Shown: piece by piece, positions 31,975 through 34,697 of the stretch
Layout: each line of letters starts with the position of its first letter
Position numbering within the stretch: position 1 is the stretch's first letter
Source of the DNA: Spiroplasma phoeniceum P40
GTDB lineage: Bacteria > Bacillota_I > Bacilli_A > Mycoplasmatales > Mycoplasmataceae
Direction: 5' to 3'
Length of the DNA: 64,000 bases
Assembly (NCBI RefSeq): GCF_003339775.1
Contig: NZ_CP031088.1
Coordinates: 1,178,001-1,242,000, forward strand
The notes under the pieces: model-generated
The model's database searches: none
What the model was told of the DNA's origin: nothing
The model's input: only the letters and a program-made list of their open reading frames with translations
Translations under genes and position numbers: made by a program

Positions 31975-32910
31975 TTATGATTTTAAATAATTACTATTTT
32001 TAAATTCAACCATAATTTGTTGACAAAGATCATCAAACTGTGAATAAGAAAATGAATATCAATGAACATTTGTTAATTGATTTTTAAATCATGTTATTTG
32101 TTTTTTAGCATAAATTTTATTAGCTTGAACCATTGTTGCTAATGTTGCATCATATGAAAGCTCGCCTTTTAAATAACGAATAATCTCTGGACAGCCAATA
32201 ATTTTCATACTTTGTTTTGCTGAATCATAATTGCAATATTTATATGCTGCTTCAACTTCAGCAAATAAACCCCGCTCTGTTAATCATAATACCCGTTCAG
32301 ATAAATATTGATGCAGTTCTGTTTTATCTGGTAATAACCCAATAATATATGGTTCAATATATCATTCATTACGGTGATGATCATTAACTGATTTTAATGT
32401 TCCGGTTTGGAAATAGTATTCTAATGCTCGCCAAACACGTTTTCGATTATTAGGATGAACTTTATTACTCTCTTGCGGATCAATTGCTGCTAATTTTTCT
32501 CACAAAGCATAATTAGAAATATGTTCATATTCTTTTGTCTTTAATAAATCACGACCCTGGTCAGAAAATTGATAATTTTTTAATAGTGCATTAATATACA
32601 ACCCACTACCACCAACTACAATTGGAAGCTTATTTTTAGTTCATAATTGAGCTAATATTTTTCGCCCTTCTTGTTGATACATCTTAATGGAATAATTCTC
32701 CTTTAAATCAATTGTTGATAATAAATGGTGTGGAATACCAACTTGTTCAGATGGTGTTATTTTATTTGTTGCAAGATTTAACCCATTAAAAATTTGAGTA
32801 GAATCAGCATTAATACATTCCCCATTAAAACGCTGAGCCATCTTAATTGATAAATCAGTTTTACCACTTCCTGTTGGACCAACAATTAAAATAACTTTTT
32901 TCTGCACCAT
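31975..32910 (-). CDS. miaA: tRNA dimethylallyltransferase
   Basis: Adds a dimethylallyl group to A37 of tRNAs reading UNN codons. 311 residues. Motifs: P-loop [12 protein letters not shown] at residue 9, [17 protein letters not shown] (binding of prenyl donor), [12 protein letters not shown], and [20 protein letters not shown] replaces the more usual motif before the zinc-less C-terminus. GAGG lies 5 bases before the ATG. A structured RNA ending in a terminator lies 55 bases upstream (32966-33125). Confidence 0.95.
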
Positions 32911-32965
32911 CAAAACCTCACTAATCTCTTTATAAATTTTATCGGATAATTCATTTTTTTCAAAT

Positions 32966-33125
32966 TAAAAAACTAACATTCAACTGTTAGCCTTTACTTT
33001 ATTTTAAAAATAACTCTGAACCGCTTTAAGTGATTGGGTGTAGAGTTACTGATTTATATAGCGGTTAATAACCCCAAACACACCTTAACGTTATAATAAA
33101 CGTAGAAAACTGTCCTTGCGGACAA
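32966..33125 (-). ncRNA. putative structured RNA with three interleaved helices
   Basis: On the minus strand, 5' to 3': a hairpin with GCAA tetraloop (TGTCC/GGACA, 33111-33124), a hairpin ACGTT/AACGT (33087-33103), then six segments in the order a-b-c-a'-b'-c'. These are a 33072-33086 with a' 33028-33038 (UUGGG/CCCAA plus AAG.UG/CACUU), b 33060-33066 with b' 33019-33025 (AACCGCU/AGCGGUU), and c 33042-33048 with c' 33011-33017 (UAACUCU/AGAGUUA). It ends in a terminator (CTAACA/TGTTAG, 32973-32990) with six T. A TATAAT lies just upstream of the first hairpin, without a good -35. It could be a stand-alone RNA or a terminator-controlled leader of miaA. It matches no riboswitch or housekeeping RNA I know. 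Confidence 0.6.
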
Positions 33126-33175
33126 TTATATTTTATCATATTTTATTTCTTTTTAGAAAAAATGGTAAACCGCAT

Positions 33176-34192
33176 TTATTCAATTCCTAATAAATTAGAA
33201 ATTACAAAACTTCCGATTAAATAACTAGAAACTGTTCCATAGATATTTGCAACAACTAATTTAACTCCAATTTTTTGTTCAATTGGTAAAATTGGTAAGT
33301 TTTCAAAAATATTTTCGTTACTATTAACAACAGGATGGCCATCAACAAAATATTTGGTTCATTTTTCAGGATCTCAGACCGTAAAAGTTAAAGTGATTCC
33401 TGCAATATCATGACTAATAATATTTTGAATGCTTTCTTTATCGTTTTTGTTGCTATATTCTTTTCAAATATTTTTTAATTGAACATTATAATGTGTCTGC
33501 ACTTTTTGCAAGTAAGTGTTAAGTAAAACATAATAAAAAATTCCTTGATCAAATTTTGTGTTTTCATTATAATTTGCGCTAGTAGGATTTAAAGTCCATG
33601 AATGAGAATCTTTAAATCAATCTTTTACATTTTCACTACGCAGTTGGTCAACATATAATCAACGTTTTTTGTCATATAAATCTGATTTTTCTGAAATTTG
33701 ATTATCATAATAAGATACTAAAGTTTCTAAATCAGTTACTGTTTTATTTTTACTTGTTTGATCTAAATATCAATTATATTTCTCAACAACCGTTGGTCAC
33801 GGCTGACTTCTTAAATCTCGAGATGACAGTAAACTTTTTTTCATATATTCTAAACTATCTTTTGCTAAATTTTCTTCACTATGAATTTTTTTTAATTGCG
33901 ACATAGTTAGTTGCATTTGTTTTAAAATATCTTTGTTTTCAATATTAATATTCATAATATTTTCTTTTGGGAAAAAAGTTGGTTTTACTCATGTATCAAG
34001 ATTATAATCAAATAATGTGTTAACATTACTATTTTCATCCAAAACAAGACTATTAATATTTTTCTTAGTATTTTCTGAAATTTGATTATTTGAAATATAA
34101 GGTAAATCAGGGATTGGATTACATCCAATTGTGTATGTTACCGGAGCAGCTAAGATGCTAATTGCATCAAAGACACTGAACAATTTTTTCAT
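33176..34192 (-). CDS. lipoprotein
   Basis: 338 residues. Signal MKKLFSVFDAISILAAPVTY then TIGC gives the lipidated Cys at residue 24. The mature part is helical and charged: DSLEYMKKSLLSSRDLRSQP, YNWYLDQTSKNKTVTDLETL, then a C-terminal domain with a hydrophobic last segment VVANIYGTVSSYLIGSFVIS. GGAG precedes the ATG. No known enzyme motif. It is upstream of the structured RNA and on the same strand. Confidence 0.8.
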
Positions 34193-34286: not shown

Positions 34287-34697
34287 TTATCTTTTTTCTC
34301 AAATTGGGTGAACTTCGTGAACTTTCATCATTGTTGTTTTAATAATTTTATCACTTTTAATATTCATTGGTTTTTGAAACTCTTTTTTATTGTCTGTTTT
34401 GGTAACACCTTGGACTACTGCTTTTCAATCATTTAATGTTTCTCGTCGAGCTTTTGCATTTTTTCAATGCATTGCTAAACAATTATTAACTTCTAATTTA
34501 CCGCCTTTTTCTATTGGCATTAATGGTTCAATCACTCACCCAAATTCTGTTTCTTGATTTAATTCTCCCATTTTAATAAAAGCTCCTGCAATATCACGAC
34601 GATAAAGTAAATTATTACGACCACCACCACGAGCAGTATTATCTCAAATTGCACGAATTTCTGGTTCTGATAATTTTGAAAGATATTGTTTCTTCAT
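34287..34697 (-). CDS. HNH-fold-like protein lacking the catalytic His
   Basis: 136 residues, MKKQYLSKLSEPEIRAIWDN start. The middle (RRDIAGAFIKMGELNQETEF, GWVIEPLMPIEKGG, NNCLAMHWKNAKARRE) follows the pattern of a bacterial HNH group with R-D-x-x-G-A, GW-x-I-(D/E)-x-x-x-P, GG and N-x-x-x-x-H-x-x-N. The Asp-His that normally follows GW-x-I is Glu-Pro here, so nuclease activity is doubtful. The basic C-terminus (MMKVHEVHPIWEKR) could bind nucleic acid. The ATG at 34695-34697 follows AAAAAGGGGA. Family assignment is by pattern only. Confidence 0.55.

Follow-up and report, generated by a model that had tools for sequence, protein, structure and literature searches.

Does the short stretch in front of miaA in Spiroplasma phoeniceum P40 encode a structured RNA and, if so, does that RNA act on miaA or elsewhere? 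The question arises from a window of 64,000 nucleotides of the P40 genome, the whole stretch of DNA analysed here. On its minus strand a first-pass annotation had proposed a compact RNA with three interleaved helices, lying just before miaA and acting either as a terminator-type riboswitch or as a free-standing small RNA. The topology and the location of that proposal stand, whereas one of its three helices had to be reassigned.

Layout of the locus and searches for known RNAs

The stretch lies between the miaA ORF and a lipoprotein-like ORF (33176-34192, minus strand) and resembles a transcription unit: a -10-like box is followed at once by a GCAA-capped hairpin and a second hairpin, after which come six short strands and, last, a terminator hairpin ending in U6 (Table 1). 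Both of the early hairpins and the clear terminator had been called by the first-pass annotation and are present, and its b strands are exact. Its c strands, UAACUCU/AGAGUUA, are also there, but they belong to a helix of 9 bp rather than 7. A TATAAT/TAAAAT-like box precedes hairpin 1 at near-constant spacing in 40/40 aligned copies, and the transcript is predicted to start approximately at hairpin 1. In P40 the terminator ends ~53 nt upstream of the miaA ORF; the terminator hairpins of relatives, homologous and divergent in sequence, also fold. The window further holds a minus-strand ORF (34287-34697) that has no Pfam match; in genus g8, 18 genomes have a homologue directly 5′ of the RNA, and genome G019 has a similar ORF before its copy.

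Table 1. Features of the RNA and of miaA in the window, with the observations attached to each.
Feature	Coordinates	Strand	Observation
Promoter -10 region TATGATAAAATATAAT, extended -10-like	33125-33140	(-)	Directly 5′ of hairpin 1; consensus scan match
Hairpin 1, UUGUCC-GCAA-GGACAG, 5′ cap hairpin	33125-33110	(-)	3/5 pairs double-changed; 3 tree events
Hairpin 2, ACGUU-UAUUAU-AACGU	33103-33088	(-)	5/5 pairs double-changed, 100% of cells paired; 8 tree events
Helix a, 5′ strand GUGUUUGGG	33081-33073	(-)	5/9 pairs double-changed; 8 tree events
Helix b, 5′ strand AACCGCU	33066-33060	(-)	2/7 pairs double-changed
b-c linker AUAUAAAUC, 9 nt	33059-33051	(-)	Length and core AUAAAU kept across genera
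Helix c, 5′ strand AGUAACUCU	33050-33042	(-)	6/9 pairs double-changed, 99.1% of cells paired; 7 tree events
Helix a, 3′ strand CCCAAUCAC	33038-33030	(-)	G-to-U change in the P40 genome gives one U-U mismatch
Helix b, 3′ strand AGCGGUU	33025-33019	(-)	Covariation count
Helix c, 3′ strand AGAGUUAUU	33017-33009	(-)	Continues straight into a U-tract outside the Citri-clade genus
Separate intrinsic terminator CUAACAGUUGAAUGUUAG-UUUUUU	32990-32967	(-)	Window's genus; -9.8 kcal/mol, z -4.0
Possible own promoter of miaA, TTGAAA-16-TAAAAT	32936-32963	(-)	Confined to the window's genus; matches the consensus, which does not show use
miaA, tRNA dimethylallyltransferase, table 4 code	31975-32913	(-)	Pfam PF01715 IPPT, E 5e-65

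In line with the expectation that the RNA belongs to no known class, a search of the whole window against Rfam 15 (4227 families, gathering cut-off) gave no match, permissive settings near the locus returned only a sub-threshold PrrF match (E 3.1), and the RNA matched no Rfam 15 family in five divergent relatives.

The pattern in a single sequence is, on its own, not remarkable. Exact ABCABC triples of 5, 7 and 7 bp fill 109-113 bins per strand of the AT-rich window, against 75-88 in six dinucleotide shuffles. When a public genome set was scanned for the exact pattern, only two true matches emerged, in S. poulsonii and S. phoeniceum, which over the compared region do not differ from our genomes G008 and G007; all other matches were random and lacked the structure. 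The RNA is therefore judged by its conservation and covariation in relatives rather than by the single-sequence pattern and, on those grounds, it is real.

Covariation across genera and the predicted fold

Within the genus of the window the RNA is 88-100% identical in 14/14 genomes, and none of its pairs shows a double change there, so the genus by itself is uninformative and relatives from other genera were required. A covariance model built from the genus copies (R1) gave full-length matches in other genera, the remaining copies were found by inspecting the DNA upstream of every miaA, and a second covariance model added two more, in G019 and G264. The resulting alignment of 40 copies, 25 of them distinct rows, is ungapped and cut into strands at fixed positions, with two departures: in the window's genus c′ is shifted once by 1 nt, and in the other genera helix a was positioned where it paired best beside the fixed a′ motif.

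Standard pairs occupy 96.2% of the 875 cells of the distinct rows. Double changes are seen in 21 of 35 pairs (listed by helix in Table 1), compared with 11.3 (s.d. 1.4) in shuffles, none of which reached as high a count (0/500), and with only 3-6 pairs in slid controls. As kinship inflates such counts, we also mapped the changes by parsimony on the miaA protein tree, on which double-change events that keep pairing fall in both hairpins and in helices a and c, as tabulated, and once in helix b; changes of a single side that keep pairing number 10 in a and 17 in c. Helix b, the most invariant, has the weakest support for that reason, and many genomes have an A-G mismatch in place of one of its pairs; G019 contributes an additional C-G to U-A change there. 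Covariation is thus found in each of the three ordered helices, and relatives supply both the conservation and the compensatory changes on which the proposal of the first-pass annotation hinged. The loop of hairpin 1 is of the GNRA type in some genera and UUCG, UUAG or UUUG elsewhere, and the exchange between GNRA and UUCG fits a simple cap.

These counts and tree events already refute a chance origin. That AT-rich DNA had produced the arrangement at random could be argued from how common exact 5/7/7 interleaved triples are in the window and from the helix a originally drawn, which was such a random match; with conservation throughout the genus and full-length, covarying matches in other genera, the probability left to this view is negligible.

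The helix a originally drawn paired GGUGU (33084-33080) with ACACC (33041-33037). It has no counterpart beyond the window's genus, and it overlaps, and is mutually exclusive with, the helix supported across genera. The latter pairs GUGUUUGGG with CCCAAUCAC over 9 positions, 8 of which are paired in P40, has the consensus GUGUUUGGG/CCCAAKCAC, and in close relatives lacks the U-U mismatch of P40. With helix a corrected in this way, the order a-b-c-a′-b′-c′ is unchanged.

Because b′ and c′ touch, at a distance of 0-1 nt, helices b and c are probably stacked end to end; helix a would branch off where they meet, joined by linkers of 3 and 6-9 nt. The b-c linker is exactly 9 nt in nearly all copies and 13 nt only in G006. 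In such a model it would run along the grooves of the stacked helices, and having to span a b/c stack of 16 bp would explain both its near-fixed length and the conservation of AUAAAU. As every helix is shorter than 11 bp, a true knot is unnecessary.

Linkage to miaA and the case for a leader

The RNA occurs in 39/39 miaA-bearing genomes of the family, across five genera, and in 38 of them it sits directly upstream of miaA, the location of a 5′ leader; among family genomes without miaA, only G019 carries it. The gene immediately upstream of the RNA falls into at least 12 different arrangements while miaA stays constant downstream, which counts against general gene-order inertia. Wider searches found no copy of the RNA beyond Spiroplasma in a sample of the class, and a single outlying match, G264, in the order.

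Decay of the RNA after separation from miaA, a possible sign of a cis role, could be looked at in a very small set of copies: G011, the second copy of G002 and the G264 contig have 1-3 broken pairs, and G019 has none. In G011 the RNA stands before a thymidylate-synthase-like ORF, and miaA lies 47 kb off beside transposase-like sequence (L085, L086, L010), the result of an IS-associated rearrangement; a stretch similar to the possible miaA promoter is retained before the separated gene. The RNA of G011 has lost one b pair, and 25 nt of the terminator region are identical at both ends of the break, which therefore looks recent. In G019 (L114, contig C29) the RNA is structurally intact, with a compensated b pair, and is followed by a ribosome-site-like AGGAG with an ATG and then by a tRNA-like gene; miaA was not found in this assembly, which is 85% complete in 80 contigs.

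Two further copies were noted in passing. The second copy of G002 (L015) precedes a broken copy of miaA ~11 kb from the intact pair and has lost the outer pair of hairpin 1. The G264 match (L115/L117, contig C22) is a decayed, Citri-like copy on a 4.7-kb contig of an assembly assigned to another family, whose own miaA is on a different contig without the RNA; contig C22 is possibly foreign to that assembly.

Termination signals differ between the genus of the window and its relatives. Outside the genus, 6-8 U fall within the 8 nt 3′ of c′ in 25/25 copies. Seventeen of these genomes have their nearest miaA start only 22-42 nt past c′, a gap with no space for a separate -35/-10 promoter, so that the RNA there must be transcribed together with miaA, and termination at the U-tract reduces miaA. 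The attenuator reading is founded on this arrangement. Many of the 17 genomes have the terminator of the preceding gene just 5′ of the RNA promoter. Within the window's genus, the same 8 nt hold 1-4 U, and miaA is at least ~80 nt from c′, with a separate terminator in between.

A further structure is predicted by ten single-sequence folds, one from each of ten long-gap relatives in genera g8 and g9 (G049, G047, G048, G035, G044, G036, G029, G027, G032 and G030). In these, a hairpin of ~20-25 bp 3′ of the RNA (z -3.2 to -6.6 against dinucleotide shuffles) joins the U-tract, in most cases with the last bases of c′, to A-rich sequence immediately 5′ of the miaA ribosome site; it is missing from the window's genus and from the short-gap genomes. 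This hairpin would compete with the base of helix c and may mark the read-through form. It arises only once the U-tract has been made and so could not on its own block termination at that point. An RNase III site is an equally good reading.

On the basis of the near-constant position of miaA downstream, the U-tract fused to c′, the short gaps to the start codon and the varied upstream contexts, we favour, with moderate confidence, the reading of the RNA as a 5′ leader of miaA and an attenuator of a new class. If its last helix also acts as a transcription terminator, the RNA probably sets the amount of miaA made. Of the two roles first suggested, relatives thus point to a leader; a stand-alone RNA is possible in the window's clade.

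Under the leader reading, transcription would start from the promoter-like box before hairpin 1 and yield the two cap hairpins, with the interleaved helices a, b and c after them. In relatives outside the window's clade a U-tract comes immediately after the 3′ strand of c, and the miaA ribosome-binding site and start come next; helix c would there serve as the stem of a long-loop intrinsic terminator, efficient only once a and b have formed. The fully folded pseudoknot would then stop transcription before miaA, and its unfolded form would let the polymerase read through. Folding would be controlled by a signal tied to the job of MiaA; a small molecule from the isoprenoid or tRNA-modification pathway, or else the MiaA protein, is the likeliest candidate. 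In the ten relatives, read-through RNA would be able to form the 20-25 bp hairpin, taking up the U-tract and mostly part of c′, and in the window's clade the stop would have shifted to the separate hairpin just downstream. A more specific version, which we put forward tentatively and hold at somewhat below even confidence, is a new riboswitch class for i6A tRNA modification, in which a pathway small molecule, or the state of tRNA or MiaA, would be read by an obligate triple-interleaved knot with the terminator as its last helix, aptamer and terminator being a single fold.

Several observations count against a leader: in G011 the RNA and miaA are apart and both persist, in G019 the RNA is intact although miaA was undetected in the incomplete assembly, and in the window's genus there is a separate terminator and miaA may own a promoter. 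The same observations fit a free-standing small RNA, which would act elsewhere, on a protein or on other RNAs, from its own promoter and terminator, with its place before miaA kept through read-through supply or by the chance of gene order. All copies do have promoter-like sequence, a structured body and terminator-like sequence, and the independent terminator of the Citri clade is strong. We nevertheless consider this explanation unlikely, as the upstream neighbours often change and the downstream gene almost never does, the 22-42 nt gap places the RNA inside the miaA transcript in 17 non-Citri genomes, and the separation in G011 looks recent and is already accompanied by the loss of a b pair.

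The other two alternatives keep the link to miaA. MiaA could bind its own leader, the A-rich b-c linker (often UAUAAA) mimicking its A36-A37-A38 target in the anticodon loop, which would suit a regulon of one gene, the fixed length and conserved AUAAAU of the linker, and the near coincidence of RNA and miaA in presence and absence across the family. Such autoregulation is quite improbable to our minds, given that G030 has AAG for AAA, that the base three before the As varies, and that the linker is not in a conserved stem-loop, groove contacts in the pseudoknot explaining its conservation equally well. Less probable again is a dual role, in which the leader would be cleaved from the miaA message and go on to act as a small RNA: the long, nearly perfect hairpin that ten relatives have ahead of miaA is of a length that RNase III needs, and the Citri clade has its separate terminator, but short-gap and Citri-clade genomes lack that hairpin. 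A leader of miaA remains our preferred reading.

Comparison with known systems

A search of open-access papers gave no riboswitch for miaA and no comparable leader in Spiroplasma. Regulatory RNAs known from the Spiroplasma lineage are few, and this one adds a compact, natural ABCABC example supported by covariation and kept across several Spiroplasma genera. If the leader reading is true, i6A37 tRNA modification would be under an RNA control devoted to it, and the pseudoknot would also serve as the terminator.

The preQ1 and SAM-II classes, named among terminator-type examples, are riboswitches with pseudoknotted aptamers. They share with the miaA leader a position before a tRNA-modification or metabolic gene, a pseudoknot near an expression signal, and an OFF state with the pseudoknot folded, as proposed here. 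The miaA leader differs in having an ABCABC arrangement rather than one H-type pseudoknot, in matching no Rfam family and in that the last helix of the knot would itself be the terminator stem. With protein-responsive attenuators such as ribosomal-protein leaders, a likeness compared through Rfam alone, it would have in common that a leader controls the gene of an RNA-binding protein, although binding of the protein to the miaA leader is a proposal.

A topological survey listed 51 RNA sequences with the ABCABC arrangement ('pseudotrefoil'), whereas H-type pseudoknots accounted for 1688 and kissing-hairpin pseudoknots for 365 (PMC3390330). The RNA described here has the same genus-1 topology as the surveyed ABCABC pseudoknots, and is set apart by helices a, b and c of 7-9 bp in a core of ~73 nt, and by the conservation and covariation of the topology in the leader of a gene. 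The topology is known but uncommon, and its conserved occurrence in a gene leader appears to be new; we rate the RNA before miaA as a regulatory leader, a known kind of RNA, but of a class that is new.
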